This document shows positions 56,083 through 64,000 of a stretch of DNA of 64,000 bases, piece by piece (the stretch's first letter is position 1; each line of letters opens with the position of its first letter). Both the position numbers and the translations under genes were made by a program. The stretch comes from Noviherbaspirillum cavernae (GTDB taxonomy: Bacteria > Pseudomonadota > Gammaproteobacteria > Burkholderiales > Burkholderiaceae_D). The stretch lies in the NCBI RefSeq assembly GCF_003590875.1, contig NZ_QYUN01000002.1, forward strand, positions 992,001-1,056,000, given 5' to 3'. The notes below the pieces were generated by a model that did not search any database, was not told the DNA's origin, and was given only the letters and a program-made list of their open reading frames with translations.

Positions 56083-57525
56083 TTACCACCCGCCGCCGAG
56101 CGAACGGATCAGCGCGACCGTCGTTGTCGCCCGTGCGCCGCGCAACTGCACTGCGCTGCGTTCGACCGTCGCCAGATTGCGCTGCGCATCCAGCACGTCG
56201 AGGTAGCCGGAGCGTCCCGCGAGATACAGCTTGTTCGCCAGTTCCGCCGAACGCCGTGCCGAGGCCACCGCGTCATCGATCGACTGCGCCTGTCCTGCCA
56301 GCGTGCGCAGGCCGACGAGGTTGTCTTCCACCTCGGCGAATGCGGCCAGCACGCTTTGCCGGTAATCGGCGACCGATTCTTCCAGTGCGGCTTCGCTGCG
56401 CGCGATGTTTGCCTTGTTGCGGCCGCCGTCGATGATCGGCAGCGACAGCAGCGCGCCGACCACCCAGGTGCGACTGCTCCACATGAACAGGTCGGCGATG
56501 TCCTCCGACTGGTAGCCGCCCGCACCCGTGAGCCGGAGAGCGGGGAACATGGCCGATCTGGCGACGCCGATGCGGGCATTGGCGGCGATCATCGCGCGCT
56601 GCGCGGCGGCGATGTCGGGACGGCGCTCCAGCAGCGCGGAGGGCAGGCCGGCCGGGATGCCCGGCAATACTGCAGATTCAGGCAGCGGATTGTTCTGTGC
56701 ACTGAACGCGGCGGCCGGCTTGCCGAGCAGCACCGCCAGCGCGTGTTCCAGCAATGCGCGCTGACGTTCCATCGCGATGGCGTCGGAGCGCGTTGTCGAC
56801 AGTTCCGTCTTGGAGCGCGCCAGATCGAGTTCGCCGAGATCGCCGAGATCGTAGCGGCGCTGGTTGATGCGCACATTCTCCTCGCGCAGGCGCACCGTCT
56901 CGTTGAGTACGGCCAGTTCGCCGTCAGCGGCGCGCAAGCGGAAATAGGTCTGCGCGACGTCCGCCTGCAGCGCCAGCAGCACGGAGCGGTAGGTCGCTTC
57001 GCTCGCCTGCGCATCCGCTTGCGCGGCGCTGATGTTGTTGGCGACGCGGCCGAACAGATCGACTTCATAGCTGGCGGTGAGGCGTCCCTGCCATGCCGTC
57101 ACCGGCACAACCGCGGTATCCTGCGACAGGCCGAGCGAGACGGGCGAGCCTCGCCCGCGCTGCCCGCTGAATTCCACTCCCACGGTCGGGATGCGGTCGG
57201 CTTCGGCCACGCCCGCCAATGCGCGCGCCTGCTTCACGCGTGCTGCAGCGGTTGCGAGGTTGGCGTTGGCGGTGGTTGCGTCCTCGATCAGCTTGTCGAG
57301 CGTGCTGTCGTTGAATGCCTTCCACCATTCGCCGCGCGGCTGGGCTTCCGCCGGCTGCGCAGGCTTCCAGCGGGCGGACTCCGTCACGGCGGCTTCCTTG
57401 TATCCGGACGGCACGTCGAGCTCCGGTGCGCGCAGTTCGGGTGCCGCGCATCCGGCGAGGACCAGCGCGGCCACTAATGGCATCAATGAGGGCGATGCAA
57501 ATTTCAGCAATGGATTTGTTTTCAT
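56083..57525 (-). CDS. opcM: Outer membrane efflux lipoprotein (NodT family)
   Basis: RND outer membrane channel of 480 aa. Lipoprotein signal with lipobox LVLAGC, then two OEP repeats with long helices (LEDATTANANLATAAARVKQARALAG, YDLGDLGELDLARSKTELSTT). It matches NodT/OprM-type channels such as OpcM. Start at 57525 gives a good lipoprotein signal; a start at 57561 overlapping the RND stop is also possible. Symbol is by synteny with the Burkholderia ceo operon. Last gene of the operon. Confidence 0.9.
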   Translation of the reverse strand: MKTNPLLKFASPSLMPLVAALVLAGCAAPELRAPELDVPSGYKEAAVTESARWKPAQPAEAQPRGEWWKAFNDSTLDKLIEDATTANANLATAAARVKQARALAGVAEADRIPTVGVEFSGQRGRGSPVSLGLSQDTAVVPVTAWQGRLTASYEVDLFGRVANNISAAQADAQASEATYRSVLLALQADVAQTYFRLRAADGELAVLNETVRLREENVRINQRRYDLGDLGELDLARSKTELSTTRSDAIAMERQRALLEHALAVLLGKPAAAFSAQNNPLPESAVLPGIPAGLPSALLERRPDIAAAQRAMIAANARIGVARSAMFPALRLTGAGGYQSEDIADLFMWSSRTWVVGALLSLPIIDGGRNKANIARSEAALEESVADYRQSVLAAFAEVEDNLVGLRTLAGQAQSIDDAVASARRSAELANKLYLAGRSGYLDVLDAQRNLATVERSAVQLRGARATTTVALIRSLGGGW

Positions 57526-57560
57526 TTTTTGCAATCCGTTCAATTTTTCATCAGCGGCCA

Positions 57561-60500
57561 TCACAGCACCTCGTTATGCGTGGCGGGAATTGCCGGTGTG
57601 GATTTTTCGAAGCGCTTGGCGAACGTGCGCAGCAGCACGTAGAACACCGGCGTCAGGAACAGGCCGAAGAAGGTCACGCCGAGCATGCCCCAGAACACCG
57701 CGACACCCATCGCGTGGCGCATCTCGGCACCCGCGCCGGAGGAGTACACCAGCGGCACCACGCCCATGATGAAGGCGATCGAGGTCATCAGGATCGGGCG
57801 CAGACGCAGACGGCATGCTTCGAGCGCCGCCTGCACCACGGTGCGGCCATGGTCTTCCAGCTCGCGTGCAAATTCCACGATCAGGATCGCATTCTTCGAC
57901 GCCAGGCCGACCAGCACGAACAAGGCGATCTGCGTGAAGATGTTGTTGTCGCCGCCGGTGAACTTGACGCCGAGCAGGGCGCACAGGATCGACATCGGCA
58001 CGATCAGGATCACGGCCAGCGGCAGCGTCCAGCTTTCGTATTGCGCGGCGAGCACCAAGAACACCAGCAGCACGCACAGCGGGAACACGATCACCATCGT
58101 ATTGCCGGCCAGGATTTCCTGGTAGGTGAGGTCGGTCCATTCATATGTAACGCCCTTGGGCAGAACTTCCTGCGCGATCTTTTCCATGATCGCCTGCGCC
58201 TGTCCGCTGGAAACGCCCGGTGCCGCGCCGCCGTTGATGTCGGCGGAAACGTAGGCGTTGTAGCGCTGCACGCGGTCCGGGCCGTAGCTGTCCTTGACAC
58301 GCATCAGCGACGACAGCGGGATCATCTCGCCCTTGTTGTTGCGCACCTTCAGCTGCGCGATGTCTTCCGCATGCGAACGGAACGGCGCGTCAGCCTGGAC
58401 CTTCACCTGGTAGGTGCGGCCGAACTGGTTGAAGTCGTTCACGTACAGCGAGCCGAGGTTGATCTGCAGGGTCTGGTAGATCGTCGACAGCGGCACGCCG
58501 AGCTGCTTGGCCTTGGTGCGGTCGATGTCGGCGAACAGCTGCGGCACGTTGATCTGATAGCTGGAGAAAATGCCTGCCAGCTCCGGCGTCTGCCATGCCT
58601 TCATCTGAACTGCCTGTGTCGCCTTGTACAGTTCGTCGTAGCCGAGGTTGCCGCGGTCTTCGATCATCAGCTTGAAGCCGCCAATGGTGCCGAGACCGTT
58701 CACCGGTGGCGGCGGGAACACCATGATGAAAGCGTCCTCGATGCTGCCGAGTTTGGCATTGATCTGCTGCGCGATCGCGCCGCCCGACAGCTCCGCCGAC
58801 TTGCGCTCATTGAACGGCTTCAGGCTGACGAAGACGATGCCGGAGTTCGGCGCATTGGTGAAACCGTTGATCGACAGGCCGGGGAAGGCGATCGAATCTT
58901 CCACGCCCGGCACCGATTTCGCGATGTCGGACATGCGGCGGATCACCGCATCGGTACGCTCCAGTGAAGCGGCGTCCGGCAATTGCGCGAAGCCCACCAG
59001 ATACTGTTTGTCCTGCGCCGGCACGAAACCGTTCGGCACCGACTGGAACACGAACACGGCGGCCACTGCCAGCGCAGCATAGACTGCCAGCGCAGCAGTC
59101 TTGCGGCCCAGCACGCTCTTGACGCCGCCTTCGTAGCGATCGGATGCGCGATGGAACATGCGGTTGAACCAGTTGAAGAAGCGGCCGAATACCTTGTCCA
59201 TGCCGCGCGTCAATGCATCCTTCGGCGCATCATGCGGCTTCAGCAGCGCGGCGGCGAGAGCCGGCGACAGCGTCAGCGAGTTGAAGGCAGAGATCACCGT
59301 CGAGATCGCAATCGTCAGTGCGAACTGGCGATAGAACTGACCCGACAGACCGGAGACGAAGGCGATCGGCACGAACACCGCGCACAGTACCAGCGCAATC
59401 GCGATGATCGGGCCGCTGACTTCCTTCATCGCCTGCACCGTCGCGTCTCGCGGCGACAAACCGTTCTGGATGTTGCGCTCGACGTTTTCCACCACCACGA
59501 TGGCGTCATCGACGACGATACCGATCGACAGCACGAGGCCGAACAGCGTCAGCGTATTGATCGAAAAGCCGAACATCAGCAGCACCGCGAAGGTGCCGAC
59601 GATGGACACCGGCACCGCCACCAGCGGGATGATCGATGCGCGCCATGTCTGCAGGAACACGATCACCACCAGTACCACCAGCGCGACAGCTTCGAGCAGC
59701 GTCTTGATCACGGCGTTGATCGACTCGCGCACGAACTGCGTCGGGTCGTACACCACGCTGTATTCGACGCCTTCCGGGAAGTCCTTTTTCAGTGTTTCCA
59801 TCGTGGCGCGCACGTCCGACGACAGTTGCAATGCATTTGCGCCCGGTGCTTCGAAGATGCCGATCGCGGCAGCGGATTTGTTGTTCAACAGCGAACGCAA
59901 GGCGTAGTCGGTGGAGCCGAGTTCGACCCGCGCCACATCCTTCAGCAGCGTGACCGAACCGTCCGCGCCGGTGCGCACGATGATGTTGCCGAATTCCTCT
60001 TCCGATTGCAGACGACCTTGGGTGTTGACGGTGAGCTGGAACTCGGCGTTCTTCGACGGTGCCGCGCCGATCACGCCGGCGGCCACCTGCACGTTCTGTT
60101 CGCGGATCGCGTTGACCACGTCGCCGGCGGTCATGCTGCGCGCCGCGACCTTCTGTGGGTCGAGCCAGACGCGCATCGCATAGTCGCCCGCGCCGAACAG
60201 CAGCGTTTCGCCCATACCGGGAATGCGCGACAGTTGATCCTTGATGTTCAGCACCGCGTAGTTGCGCAGGTACACATCGTCATAGCGGCCGTTGGGCGAG
60301 GACAGGTGCACCACCATCGTCAGGTTGGGCGAACTCTTGGCGGTGGTCACGCCGATCTGCCGTACTTCTTCCGGCAGGCGCGGCAAGGCGCGCTGTACGC
60401 GGTTCTGCACCTGCGTTTCGGCCTGCTCGACGTTGGAACCGACCTTGAAGGTGACGGTCAGTGCCAGCGCACCGTCGGAGGTCGCCTGCGATGACATGTA

Positions 60501-60734
60501 CAGCATGTTCTCGACGCCGTTGATCTGTTCTTCCAGCGGCGCGGCGACGGTTTCCGCAATCACTTTCGGATTGGCGCCCGGATAGACGGCGCGCACCACC
60601 ACCGATGGCGGCACCACGTCGGGATATTCCGATATCGGCAGCTTGAACAAGGCCAGCACGCCGGCCACGAATATGAGGATCGACAGGACCGCCGCGAAGA
60701 TCGGGCGGTCGACGAAAAATCTGGAGAAGTTCAT
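57561..60734 (-). CDS. ceoB: Multidrug RND transporter (MexF/CeoB-like)
   Basis: Inner membrane HAE1 pump of 1057 aa. N-terminus MNFSRFFVDRPIFAAVLSIL; TM4 FGLVLSIGIVVDDAIVVVENVERN with the D-D pair of the proton relay; C-terminal LRPILMTSIAFIMGVVPLV. Pattern YPDVVPPSVVVRAVYPGANP and VIGAAP fit the MexF group. The expected cargo is chloramphenicol, fluoroquinolones, trimethoprim and the like. The start at 60734 follows AGAG(A)AC. Symbol is by synteny with ceoB/bpeF. Confidence 0.94.
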   Translation of the reverse strand: MNFSRFFVDRPIFAAVLSILIFVAGVLALFKLPISEYPDVVPPSVVVRAVYPGANPKVIAETVAAPLEEQINGVENMLYMSSQATSDGALALTVTFKVGSNVEQAETQVQNRVQRALPRLPEEVRQIGVTTAKSSPNLTMVVHLSSPNGRYDDVYLRNYAVLNIKDQLSRIPGMGETLLFGAGDYAMRVWLDPQKVAARSMTAGDVVNAIREQNVQVAAGVIGAAPSKNAEFQLTVNTQGRLQSEEEFGNIIVRTGADGSVTLLKDVARVELGSTDYALRSLLNNKSAAAIGIFEAPGANALQLSSDVRATMETLKKDFPEGVEYSVVYDPTQFVRESINAVIKTLLEAVALVVLVVIVFLQTWRASIIPLVAVPVSIVGTFAVLLMFGFSINTLTLFGLVLSIGIVVDDAIVVVENVERNIQNGLSPRDATVQAMKEVSGPIIAIALVLCAVFVPIAFVSGLSGQFYRQFALTIAISTVISAFNSLTLSPALAAALLKPHDAPKDALTRGMDKVFGRFFNWFNRMFHRASDRYEGGVKSVLGRKTAALAVYAALAVAAVFVFQSVPNGFVPAQDKQYLVGFAQLPDAASLERTDAVIRRMSDIAKSVPGVEDSIAFPGLSINGFTNAPNSGIVFVSLKPFNERKSAELSGGAIAQQINAKLGSIEDAFIMVFPPPPVNGLGTIGGFKLMIEDRGNLGYDELYKATQAVQMKAWQTPELAGIFSSYQINVPQLFADIDRTKAKQLGVPLSTIYQTLQINLGSLYVNDFNQFGRTYQVKVQADAPFRSHAEDIAQLKVRNNKGEMIPLSSLMRVKDSYGPDRVQRYNAYVSADINGGAAPGVSSGQAQAIMEKIAQEVLPKGVTYEWTDLTYQEILAGNTMVIVFPLCVLLVFLVLAAQYESWTLPLAVILIVPMSILCALLGVKFTGGDNNIFTQIALFVLVGLASKNAILIVEFARELEDHGRTVVQAALEACRLRLRPILMTSIAFIMGVVPLVYSSGAGAEMRHAMGVAVFWGMLGVTFFGLFLTPVFYVLLRTFAKRFEKSTPAIPATHNEVL

Positions 60735-60910: not shown

Positions 60911-62137
60911 TCAGGACTTCGAAGCGGCGGTATCGGCCTTCACTTCCGCCTTGGGCGCGGCCTGCGGCTGGTTCTGGTCGGCATCCATCGATACCATCTG
61001 CGCCGTGACCGGCGCGCCGGGGCGAACGCGCTGCAAGCCGTTCACCACGATTTTTTCACCCGGCTTGACGCCGTCGCGCACCACGCGCAAGCCATCGACC
61101 ACCGGACCCAGTTTGACCGCGCGATACTCGGCCTTGCCATCGGCAGTGACTACATACACGAACTTGCGGTTCTGGTCGGTACCGACTGCGCGATCGCTGA
61201 TCATCGCCGCATTGCTCGCGCCAGCCATGCCGTTGCCGCTGGCCAGCTGCACGCGGGCAAAGAGGCCGGGCGCCAGTGCATTGTCGGCGTTGGCGAACAC
61301 CGCACGCATGCGCACGCTGCCGGTGGCCGGATCGACGCGGTTGTCGACGAACTCCAGCCTGCCTTCGTGCGGGAAGCCGCTTTCATTGGCAAGGCCGATG
61401 CGTACCGTGACCGGCGTGCCCTTGCGCGCCAACGCACCCACGCGCAGGAACGATTCTTCATCGCCATCGAAGCTGGCGTAGATCTGCTTGTTCGACACCA
61501 CCGAAGTCAGCACGACGCTGCCATCGACCAGGTTGCCGGTCGTGATTTCCGCCTTACTGACACGGCCGTTGATCGGCGAATGCACCTTGGTGAAGCCGAG
61601 GTTCAGCTTCGCCGCCTCGTAGGTCGCCTGGGCGGCGCGTGCGCCGGCTTCCAGCTCCTTCATGCTGGAAGCCTTTTCATCGGCTTCGCGCTGCGCGATG
61701 GCTCTTTCCGCAACCAGTTTTTCGGCGCGCACCAGTTCGATTTTCGCCAGATCAGCCTTGGCGCGTGCTGCCAATGCCGCGGCTTCGGTGCGGCTTGCCT
61801 CGGCTTCATACGGGCGCGGGTCGATGACGAACAGCACATCGCCTTTCCTCACTTCGGCACCCGGCTTGAAATTGACCGAGGCGATGAAACCGGACACGCG
61901 CGGACGGATTTCGACGTGGTCCACCGCTTCAAGCCGGCCGGAAAATTCCTGCGTCTCCACCACTTGCTTTTCGATGACGGTGGCGGCGGTAATCGGCGGC
62001 CCGCCTGCGGGCTGCTGGCCGACTTCCTGCGCAGACGGCTGGCCGCAGCCGGACAGCACCAGTGCTGCGGTGCCGCTCAACAGCAGGGCGGTGGATGCGG
62101 AGCGTGCGGCGTGAGTGAATGCGGATACGTTTTTCAT
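60911..62137 (-). CDS. ceoA: RND periplasmic adaptor lipoprotein (MexE/CeoA-like)
   Basis: Membrane-fusion protein of 408 aa. Lipobox ALVLSGC, then beta-barrel/lipoyl segments (VDHVEIRPRVSGFIASVNFKPGAEVRKGDVLFVIDPRPYEAE in part) and a coiled hairpin (about 95-170). The start at 62137 gives a clean lipoprotein signal; the in-frame extension to 62188 is unlikely. Its 5' leader holds an 18-codon ORF and, 140 bases upstream, a SoxR-type promoter. Symbol by synteny with ceoA/bpeE. Confidence 0.92.
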   Translation of the reverse strand: MKNVSAFTHAARSASTALLLSGTAALVLSGCGQPSAQEVGQQPAGGPPITAATVIEKQVVETQEFSGRLEAVDHVEIRPRVSGFIASVNFKPGAEVRKGDVLFVIDPRPYEAEASRTEAAALAARAKADLAKIELVRAEKLVAERAIAQREADEKASSMKELEAGARAAQATYEAAKLNLGFTKVHSPINGRVSKAEITTGNLVDGSVVLTSVVSNKQIYASFDGDEESFLRVGALARKGTPVTVRIGLANESGFPHEGRLEFVDNRVDPATGSVRMRAVFANADNALAPGLFARVQLASGNGMAGASNAAMISDRAVGTDQNRKFVYVVTADGKAEYRAVKLGPVVDGLRVVRDGVKPGEKIVVNGLQRVRPGAPVTAQMVSMDADQNQPQAAPKAEVKADTAASKS

Positions 62138-62195
62138 GTTGTTTTTCCCCAGCTGGTTATGGATTGTTCGGTAATGCCTTGAATTCATTTACGCA

Positions 62196-62252
62196 CTACA
62201 TCGATGGATGAAAGTGTTCATCGATGCATGCAATGCCGATTCTGCTGCTCAT
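62196..62252 (-). CDS. Possible 18-codon leader ORF of the ceoA transcript
   Basis: Minus-strand ORF MSSRIGIACIDEHFHPSM with GGAGAG six bases before its ATG, lying inside the predicted 5' leader between the SoxR-type promoter and the adaptor gene. Two copies of CATCGATG (62199-62206, 62219-62226) sit inside it and can pair. It may regulate the operon by translation-dependent folding. No homology evidence. Confidence 0.4.
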   Translation of the reverse strand: MSSRIGIACIDEHFHPSM

Positions 62253-62283
62253 CGTTTTCTCTCCGTAAAAGAGGTGACGGCCC

Positions 62284-62314
62284 ATTATCAAACCTGAAGT
62301 TAGCTTGAGGTCAA
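62284..62314 (-). promoter_or_regulatory. SoxR-like promoter with 19-bp spacer upstream of ceoA
   Basis: On the minus strand TTGACC (62314-62309), 19 bases, then GATAAT (62289-62284). The spacer holds a dyad, ACCTCAAGCT/AACTTCAGGT (8 of 10 matched), close to the SoxR box of the soxS promoter (CCTCAAGTTAACTTGAGG) with two differences. A 19-bp spacer is the hallmark of MerR-family activated promoters. No soxR gene is in the window. Confidence 0.75.
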
Positions 62315-62420
62315 GCGGTCGCGGATGTCTGATTCGGTACACGGTGCCGTGCCGCAAGGCGGCAGGTGACTACAGATATTGCAAGCTGACGTCAGCCTCG
62401 GGCTTCCCGTAACGGGAAGG

Positions 62421-63284
62421 TCAAGCACTTTTTGCTGCATCCAGCCCTGCCACGAAGGCGGCGATTTCCTGCAGCACGCTTTCCTTGCGCACACAGCTAC
62501 ATCGCGCATCCGGCTGTTCCAGCTCGATCGGCGGCAGTCGCTTGACGACGGCCCTGATGCCGGCCGCAAGCAGCTTGGCGCCGTACTGTTCCGCCTCGTC
62601 GCGCAAGGGATCGTCGTCCGCCGAGAGAATCAGGGCCGGCGGTAAACCCTTCATGCGGCTCGACTGCAGCGGCGACGCATACGGATGGGTGCGGTCAATT
62701 GCACGCGGCAGATAGTCGCGATAGCCGGCGGCGCATTCGCCGGCTGCCCGCGCCGCGCCGCCGTCATCGGCAATGGTGCGCATCGAGCAACTGGTCAGGC
62801 CGGGATCCAGCATCGGCATGATCAATATCTGCGCAGCCAGTGCAGGACCGCCCCGGTCGCGCGCCATCAACGCAGACACTGCGGCAAGATTGCCGCCTGC
62901 CTCGAGGCCTGCGGTAATCAGGTGTTTGCCATCCCAGCCCAGCTTTGCCTTGTGCCTGGCAGCCCACTTCAGCAACGCATGCGCGTCTTCAACGGCTGCC
63001 GGAAACGGTTGCACATCGGCCACCGTGTAGGTCGACGCAAGTACTTTGCAACCGGTGATTTCCGCCAGCCCGCGCACGAAGGGATCGATGGCGTCCAGTT
63101 CTGAGGTGACGAACCCTCCCGGCGGGAAAAACACGATCAATTTCTGATCATCATGTCGCGCAAGGGCAGGCTCAGGTGTCGGTGTATACAGGCGCGCGTC
63201 GAGCTTGTTGCGCTCGCCTTGCACGACCAGCGTACCGACGGTCACTCCATCGGCAACGACATCCTTGCGGCTGCCAGGGTTCAT
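62421..63284 (-). CDS. llpE: Alpha/beta-hydrolase-like protein lacking the catalytic serine (LlpE-like)
   Basis: A 287-aa HSL/lipase-type fold protein. Where active esterases have HGGG it reads PPGGF (54-58), and the nucleophile elbow GxSxG is GLEAG with E128 replacing Ser (codon GAG). The Asp in LSADDDPLRDEA remains; the His in the last segment is not recognisable. It matches the lipase-like llpE gene placed between the regulator and adaptor in the Burkholderia ceo/bpeEF operons. It is probably not a hydrolase. The start at 63284 faces the LysR gene. Confidence 0.8.
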   Translation of the reverse strand: MNPGSRKDVVADGVTVGTLVVQGERNKLDARLYTPTPEPALARHDDQKLIVFFPPGGFVTSELDAIDPFVRGLAEITGCKVLASTYTVADVQPFPAAVEDAHALLKWAARHKAKLGWDGKHLITAGLEAGGNLAAVSALMARDRGGPALAAQILIMPMLDPGLTSCSMRTIADDGGAARAAGECAAGYRDYLPRAIDRTHPYASPLQSSRMKGLPPALILSADDDPLRDEAEQYGAKLLAAGIRAVVKRLPPIELEQPDARCSCVRKESVLQEIAAFVAGLDAAKSA

Positions 63285-63447: not shown

Positions 63448-64000
63448 ATGGACAAATTGCAGGCGATGGAAATCTTCGTGAAGGTGGTTGATGCAGGCGG
63501 TTTCACGCGCGCGGCGGACAGTATGCAGCTGCCGAAGGCAACGGTGTCGACGCTGATACGCAATCTGGAAGCAGGGCTGTCCGTCAAGTTGTTGAACCGG
63601 ACGACGCGCCAGATCAGCCTGACCGCTGATGGCGCGGCCTACTATGAACGCTGCCTGAGAATCCTGGCGGATGTGCGCGATGCGGAAGAGTCACTATCAA
63701 AGACGCATGCCAGCCCGAGCGGGCGCTTGCGGGTCGATGTGCCGACCGGACTCGGGCGGCCGCTGATCATTCCGGCGCTGCCGGCATTCTTCGAGCGCTA
63801 TCCGGAGATCGACATGGAGCTCGGTTGCAGCGACCGCCCGGTTGACCTGATCGAGGAGGGCGTCGATTGCGCCGTGCGCGTGGGCTCGCTGCCGGATTCG
63901 ACGCTGATCGCGCGCCGTATCGGCACCGTGCATTCGGTCATCTGCGCCGCGCCATCCTACACGGCGCGCCACGGGCGACCGCAGCATCCGCAGGACCTGA
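63448..64000 (+). CDS. ceoR: LysR-family transcriptional regulator (CeoR/BpeT-like), partial
   Basis: The first 184 codons are in the window. The N-terminal winged helix reads MEIFVKVVDAGGFTRAADSM, then QLPKATVSTLIRNLEAGLSV, RTTRQISLTADGAAYYERCL. The effector domain begins at about residue 90 (GRLRVDVPTGLGRPLIIPALPAF). It is divergent from llpE-ceoA-ceoB-opcM, as in CeoR and BpeT loci, so it likely controls the RND operon; effector unknown. The gene continues past 64000. Confidence 0.88.
   Translation, partial: MDKLQAMEIFVKVVDAGGFTRAADSMQLPKATVSTLIRNLEAGLSVKLLNRTTRQISLTADGAAYYERCLRILADVRDAEESLSKTHASPSGRLRVDVPTGLGRPLIIPALPAFFERYPEIDMELGCSDRPVDLIEEGVDCAVRVGSLPDSTLIARRIGTVHSVICAAPSYTARHGRPQHPQDL

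Follow-up and report, generated by a model that had tools for sequence, protein, structure and literature searches.

The closest described relatives of the operon studied here are ceoAB-opcM and bpeEF-oprC of Burkholderia, in which a divergent LysR-type regulator gene is followed by llpE and the genes for adaptor, permease and channel (PMC5587915, PMC4396416). Known control of bpeEF-oprC acts at the gap between bpeT and llpE through BpeT and BpeS, and the excerpts of these accounts that we used describe no internal MerR-type promoter (PMC5587915, PMC4396416). For substrate induction of the Burkholderia pump an extra regulatory factor besides BpeT and BpeS has been deduced (PMC5587915). MerR-family activators act on promoters with hexamers 19-20 bp apart, and the published CueR signal is ACCTTCCC-(5)-TGGAAGGT within a 19-bp spacer (PMC1526738). 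Both CueR and SoxR have been connected with efflux. In Pseudomonas aeruginosa the multidrug RND pump mexPQ-opmE belongs to the CueR regulon together with the copA and copZ genes (PMC7922089, PMC12833586), and SoxR acts as an activator of the RND pump mexGHI-opmD (according to PMC8859910). In Stenotrophomonas maltophilia a SoxR box lies between hexamers 19 bp apart before the efflux gene mfsA; oxidized SoxR distorts the promoter, and a box with just 14/18 identity is bound by SoxR and functional in this species (PMC4411124). At the level of titles and abstract openings, with subscription journals mostly outside the scope, we found no literature that links SoxR or CueR to ceo/bpeEF-type operons.

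The operon and the llpE-adaptor junction

The window is a stretch of 64,000 nucleotides (G000:C2:992001-1056000) from a genome of 4.66 Mb, which is assembled into 4 contigs and 99.84% complete. The following features were located in it:

63448..63999, + strand: LysR-type regulator gene in the CeoR/BpeT position, divergent from llpE; the window end cuts the gene
62421..63284, - strand: llpE-like alpha/beta hydrolase, gene 1 of the operon
62394..62424, - strand: P1, CueR-type promoter TTGACC-N19-GAGGCT with the perfect 17-bp dyad CTTCCCGTTACGGGAAG
62284..62314, - strand: P2, SoxR-type promoter TTGACC-N19-GATAAT with the box CCTCAAGCTAACTTCAGG
62196..62252, - strand: leader ORF of 18 codons, MSSRIGIACIDEHFHPSM, with the ribosome-site-like GGAGAG
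62199..62226, - strand: two CATCGATG copies (at 62199 and 62219), able to pair as a stem within the leader ORF
60911..62137, - strand: ceoA/mexE-type periplasmic adaptor, likely start MKNVSAF at 62137; the open frame extends to 62188
57561..60734, - strand: ceoB/oqxB-type RND permease, likely start MNFSRFF; the open frame extends to 60779
56083..57564, - strand: opcM/NodT-type outer-membrane channel

The gene order (divergent LysR gene, llpE, adaptor, permease, channel) is the ceoAB-opcM / bpeEF-oprC arrangement, which places the operon in this group, and the same order was observed in most of the Burkholderiales loci compared. The permease scored over the cut-off for RND_permease_1 and the channel over that for the NodT type; for the adaptor the top NCBIfam profile was MexE, with a score under its cut-off. 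A scan of 62050-62520 gave 0 terminator-like sites and 0 promoter-like sites with 16-18 nt spacing.

We read the llpE-ceoA junction as a pair of tandem MerR-type promoters, of which P1 is predicted to put the pump under CueR, while P2 would be an orphan of the SoxR type; we assign this reading as a whole a probability of about 0.6. The initial annotation had proposed a redox-responsive internal promoter that lets the pump be induced without llpE. Because a MerR-type promoter lies directly before the adaptor gene, the pump could indeed be transcribed without llpE, but redox induction through SoxR in this strain gained no support, since no SoxR was found.

The CueR-type promoter P1

P1, which the initial annotation had overlooked, is the better supported of the two promoters. 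It precedes P2 by 79 bp, and its -35 encloses the TGA that terminates llpE. With TTGACC-N19-GAGGCT it has the 19-bp spacing expected of its class, and the -10 GAGGCT is poor. Its dyad ACCTTCCC-GTTAC-GGGAAGCC agrees with the published CueR signal at 13/16 positions (PMC1526738).

With at most 1 mismatch the CueR pattern occurs at 4 sites in the source genome and at 0 in the control. These sites belong to a small His-rich gene, copZ, copA and ceoA, the last being P1. CopA and CopZ of this genome carry heavy-metal domains, cueR is present, and the like sites at copA and copZ put P1 in the company expected of a CueR regulon. At 3 mismatches the pattern gave 119 rows versus 39 in the control, which is only ~3 times as many and not specific, so the weight of the pattern rests on the closer matches. 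The best CueR-type site of the genome (L089, 1583-2026) fronts the gene of a small His-rich, secreted-looking protein that has no Pfam match.

Across 15 genomes of the genus we obtained 42 distinct sites with at most 1 mismatch (45 rows versus 3 for the reversed control). Their neighbours were determined by tblastn with the low-complexity filter off: 33 sites lie near relatives of CopA, CopZ or the His-rich gene, a count that includes L275 with its ATPase match (39%) ~1.2 kb off, 3 lie at ceoA (G000, G004 and G010) and 6 were left unassigned. Relatives of the His-rich gene stand behind CueR-type sites at 11 more loci of the genus (L253, L255-L257, L259, L261, L265, L268, L270, L278, L287).

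The genus comparison covered 13 of 14 loci (L129, which is cut, was left out), and L131 and L132 (35% identity) represent another pump and were not counted. P1 was found at ceoA in 6 of the 11 readable orthologues (G000, G001, G004, G007, G009 and G010), three of them with at least 2 mismatches. It is degenerate in G002 and absent at ceoA in G005, G006, G012 and G014. Five relatives preserve TTGACC as well as the spacing, with variable bases in the loop and the arms. When P1 was scored at 42 of the 71 loci, values of at least 17 were reached only by 4 Noviherbaspirillum loci; the next best value was 12.5, shuffles gave 0/3000, and none of the 42 scored loci had a site of comparable score outside the genus.

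The SoxR-type promoter P2 and the leader

On the minus strand TTGACC-N19-GATAAT is found at 62284-62314; this is its single occurrence in the window and 100 shuffles gave none, which bears out the promoter motif that had been reported for the adaptor gene. The SoxR box reported in its spacer is also there: it matches the SoxR consensus CCTCAAGTTAACTTGAGG at 16/18 positions (2 mismatches), its dyad pairs at 7/9 positions (8/10 when extended), and it sits between -35 and -10 within the 19-bp spacer in the same register as the boxes adjoining soxR genes. In a whole-genome scan it was the sole site within 3 mismatches of the consensus, and the further copies that the initial annotation had suggested looking for did not turn up.

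The bare 18-mer is a poor guide, with 9 forward versus 12 reversed-control matches at 3 mismatches in the 15 genus genomes, which is not significant. For the box together with an in-register TTGA we found matches in 60/244 genomes of the family compared to 0/244 for the reversed control. We further built a SoxR-box matrix on 25 distinct sequences out of 40 soxR-adjacent loci. P2 scored 36.9 bits, a value reached by 0 of 96.4 million simulated positions, the best of which stayed more than 4 bits short. As its matrix score is unmatched in simulation and the fuller pattern is free of control matches, it is very improbable that P2 arose as a MerR-type element by chance. Among genuine SoxR boxes it stands near the bottom (leave-one-out minimum 36.0, median 50.5).

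Among the 11 readable orthologues of the genus, P2 is present at ceoA in the source genome only. The regions upstream of ceoA were scanned at 65 of the 71 loci, some with short upstream DNA, leaving out L046, L056, L072, L078 and L087 (match near the contig start) as well as L073; the sites nearest to P2 had 5 mismatches (L043 and L061). A conserved operon feature was rejected, as P2 was seen at no other ceoA upstream region scanned except that of G111, a genome of another genus.

The distance between P1 and the ATG of the adaptor is 256 nt in the window compared to 31-57 nt in 5 relatives, and the extra leader of ~200 nt contains P2 and the leader ORF. Among the compared loci the extra leader showed four local similarities, all spanning the box and a few flanking bases, and in the plasmid collection it had no match. 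As the similarities are confined to the box and no plasmid matched, we discarded the idea that P2 and the leader are a copy of other DNA. A known RNA family was discarded as well, the only two matches being far below threshold and to eukaryotic families. The folding energy of the leader is ordinary (z -0.18). The 18-codon ORF, its ribosome site and the paired CATCGATG copies that the initial annotation had pointed out are all present, but simulated leaders contained an ATG ORF of at least 18 codons in 36% of the cases and one with a ribosome-site-like motif in 3.7%. A repeated palindromic 8-mer, a feature chosen post hoc, occurred in 0.23%. The comparison across related species that the initial annotation had called for showed the leader ORF in none of the relatives compared.

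SoxR and the MerR proteins of the source genome

A search with the SoxR profile TIGR01950, with stop codons read through, gave no match over the cut-off in the source genome; the top match was the CueR gene. Elsewhere the same profile identified soxR in 4 of the 15 genus genomes, each with a box at soxR. The initial annotation had made its reading depend on a soxR gene or another MerR regulator of this box, and for this assembly the outcome goes against it. Because no SoxR was found, we do not file P2 as a SoxR-regulated promoter in this genome, and we have given up redox control by SoxR as its default reading.

PF00376 found five genes over the cut-off and PF13411 found the same five plus a sixth with a partial match (positions 32-67, 25.3 bits) that lacks the first half of the domain. 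In the frame of this sixth match (RLQFIRHCRSLQLGLPEIRVLLDLK, L011 1366-1632) the MerR-family domain is reduced to its second half; the frame resembles the CadR-type protein and looks like a decayed MerR gene. The five whole MerR proteins include a CadR/PbrR-type protein and CueR, both over their NCBIfam cut-offs (CueR: 175.9 bits versus 147.4). The third carries a TipAS (antibiotic-recognition) domain (C2:3855866-3856066); the fourth we take to be LiuR-like and the fifth presumably an orphan beside a gene read as ihfA. The SoxR Fe-S motif is absent from all five and present in the SoxR of a relative. Upstream of the gene for the TipAS-domain protein (L008, around 1737-1790) there is a promoter with a 19-bp spacer, TTGACCCTCACGCAGCGTGAGACTTCAAAAT, and a CTCA/TGAG dyad, which probably serves self-regulation. 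Judged by reading, this gene adjoins MFS-like exporter genes.

SoxR boxes across the family

The 60 box-bearing genomes of the family hold 76 box sites (81 rows minus 5 palindromic repeats). SoxR was found in 49 of these genomes and another MerR gene beside the box in 10; only the source genome has neither. By site, 40 boxes lie beside soxR and 17 beside a second MerR type; another 2 adjoin a monooxygenase-like gene that has no soxR nearby, and 17 are elsewhere. The last group includes the box of the window (L158) and one in G111 (L192), and by reading, the remaining neighbours comprise SnoaL-like enzymes and transporters, proteins resembling RidA or reductases, and a few genes of unclear kind.

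The second type of MerR-family regulator (MDITEVARRSGVPASTLRFYEEKGL...) adjoins SoxR-like boxes that are mostly TTGACYTCAAGTTGACTTGAAGT (L137, L139, L142, L144, L155, L156, L159, L162, L172, L173, L175-L178, L190, L213, L215-L217, L219, L220). Its other neighbours read as a small membrane-protein-like gene (L137/L144) and a methyltransferase-like gene (L139/L142). A box scan alone would miscall these boxes as SoxR sites. We rejected P2 as an operator of this type, which stands beside CTTCAAGT-like boxes: the corresponding matrix gave 32.6 compared to 36.9 for SoxR, and there is no such gene among the five. A small antibiotic-biosynthesis-monooxygenase-like gene, again by reading, recurs beside the SoxR boxes of the family, with soxR or alone (L146, L149, L163, L193, L200-L204, L214). 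In G064, G141, G150, G191 and G212 the soxR match contains one in-frame stop codon.

At L192 of G111 the box TTGACCTCAAGTTAAGTTGAGGTCCGAGAAT (1 mismatch) follows an llpE relative, an alpha/beta hydrolase with 58% identity to the llpE of the window. After the box come 34 codons starting MKTTRQNTDRLHSG and then the contig end. We read these codons as the start of the adaptor, because the remainder of an adaptor starts at a different contig end in G111. This genome has soxR. An adaptor match was obtained in 57 of 62 genomes of its genus (L221, cut by a contig end, has no upstream DNA), and no site with fewer than 9 mismatches of 23 turned up in the 450 nt preceding the adaptor in 29 other genomes. 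A box at the same junction in G000 and G111, and in none of the 29 congeners of G111, suggests sporadic installation: a SoxR-type promoter seems to have been put in at the llpE-ceoA junction at least twice.

Interpretation and competing explanations

In the preferred reading, P1 and P2 could each transcribe ceoAB-opcM without llpE. P1 would be a CueR operator-promoter, with CueR sitting between hexamers 19 bp apart and Cu(I) binding distorting the DNA so that transcription starts. This would bring the multidrug pump into the copper-response regulon beside copA and copZ, and copper-induced, llpE-independent transcription is the most likely reading of P1. P2 may have been gained in this lineage, within the ~200 bp of extra leader, as an operator-promoter of the SoxR class. 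As the source genome yielded no regulator for it, it is most likely an orphan left behind after the loss of SoxR in the lineage, a relic that would now be a weak unregulated promoter, firing weakly or not at all. The poor -10 of P1 and its patchy occurrence even within the genus count against this explanation, and P2 retains both hexamers and most of its dyad, which is more than a long-abandoned relic might.

The intact box, register and hexamers of P2 would also fit a live, redox-inducible promoter whose SoxR gene lies on a replicon that the assembly lacks or escaped the search. G111, with a box at the same spot and soxR in its genome, is in favour of this, as is the 14/18 box bound in S. maltophilia (PMC4411124). 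However, an assembly of such completeness in only 4 contigs yielded no SoxR over the cut-off even with stops read through, and the same search does succeed in 4/15 genus genomes and 49/60 box-bearing genomes, so we consider a live SoxR promoter unlikely. P2 could alternatively answer to one of the five MerR proteins that the genome does encode. The TipAS-domain protein would be the most plausible candidate and the pump would then answer drug-like ligands: the protein has an antibiotic-recognition domain, and its gene has a 19-bp-spacer promoter of its own and lies beside putative exporter genes. Yet its dyad differs from that of P2 in both sequence and centre, the source genome has no second P2-like box within 3 mismatches, and CadR- and CueR-type sites differ from P2 as well, which makes this reading rather improbable.

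That P2 resembles a SoxR promoter by chance, with no regulatory history, might be argued from its restriction to the ceoA of a single genome of its genus, its low rank among genuine boxes, the regulator that was not found and the control-level matches of the bare 18-mer. The fuller pattern with 0/244 control genomes, the simulated positions, none of which reached its score, and the parallel in G111 leave this with a very small probability. Almost as improbable is that, instead of a CueR promoter, P1 forms an RNA hairpin where llpE ends, for processing or attenuation. Its perfect dyad would fold in the transcript too and its -10 is poor, but 62050-62520 contains no terminator-like site, five relatives keep TTGACC and the spacing while the bases of loop and arms vary, and the pattern marks copper-type genes across the genus.

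A wider generalization is tentative. The llpE-adaptor junction of BpeEF/MexEF-type pumps might be a hot spot for MerR-type stress promoters, with CueR in a Noviherbaspirillum clade and SoxR independently in G000 and G111. Such inputs would bypass LysR and llpE and could make the operon of the source genome a three-input one (LysR, copper and redox-type).

Comparison with known systems

If P1 acts as predicted, copper would activate a broad multidrug pump across a group of environmental bacteria, which would make it a concrete case of metal-antibiotic co-regulation. The junction also suggests the kind of answer to seek for the extra regulatory factor of the Burkholderia pump, with which the operon shares its gene order. 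P2 offers a naturally occurring example of a SoxR-type operator that is well preserved although no SoxR was detected in the genome.

Among the described systems mexPQ-opmE is alike in being a multidrug RND pump grouped with copA and copZ. In contrast to it, the pump described here belongs to the MexE/OqxB/BpeEF type and is accompanied by llpE and a divergently oriented LysR gene; its CueR-type site is internal, with the -35 over the llpE stop codon and regulation that is predicted. P2 resembles mfsA in having a SoxR box within the 19 bp that separate the hexamers before an efflux gene, and mexGHI-opmD in the association of the SoxR system with an RND pump; it differs from both in that no soxR was detected in the source genome and that the pump family is another one. 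P1 is predicted to be a pump promoter of the CueR regulon and P2 most likely an orphan promoter of the SoxR type, whose sensor was not found in this genome, both placed within an operon that follows the ceoAB-opcM / bpeEF-oprC plan.
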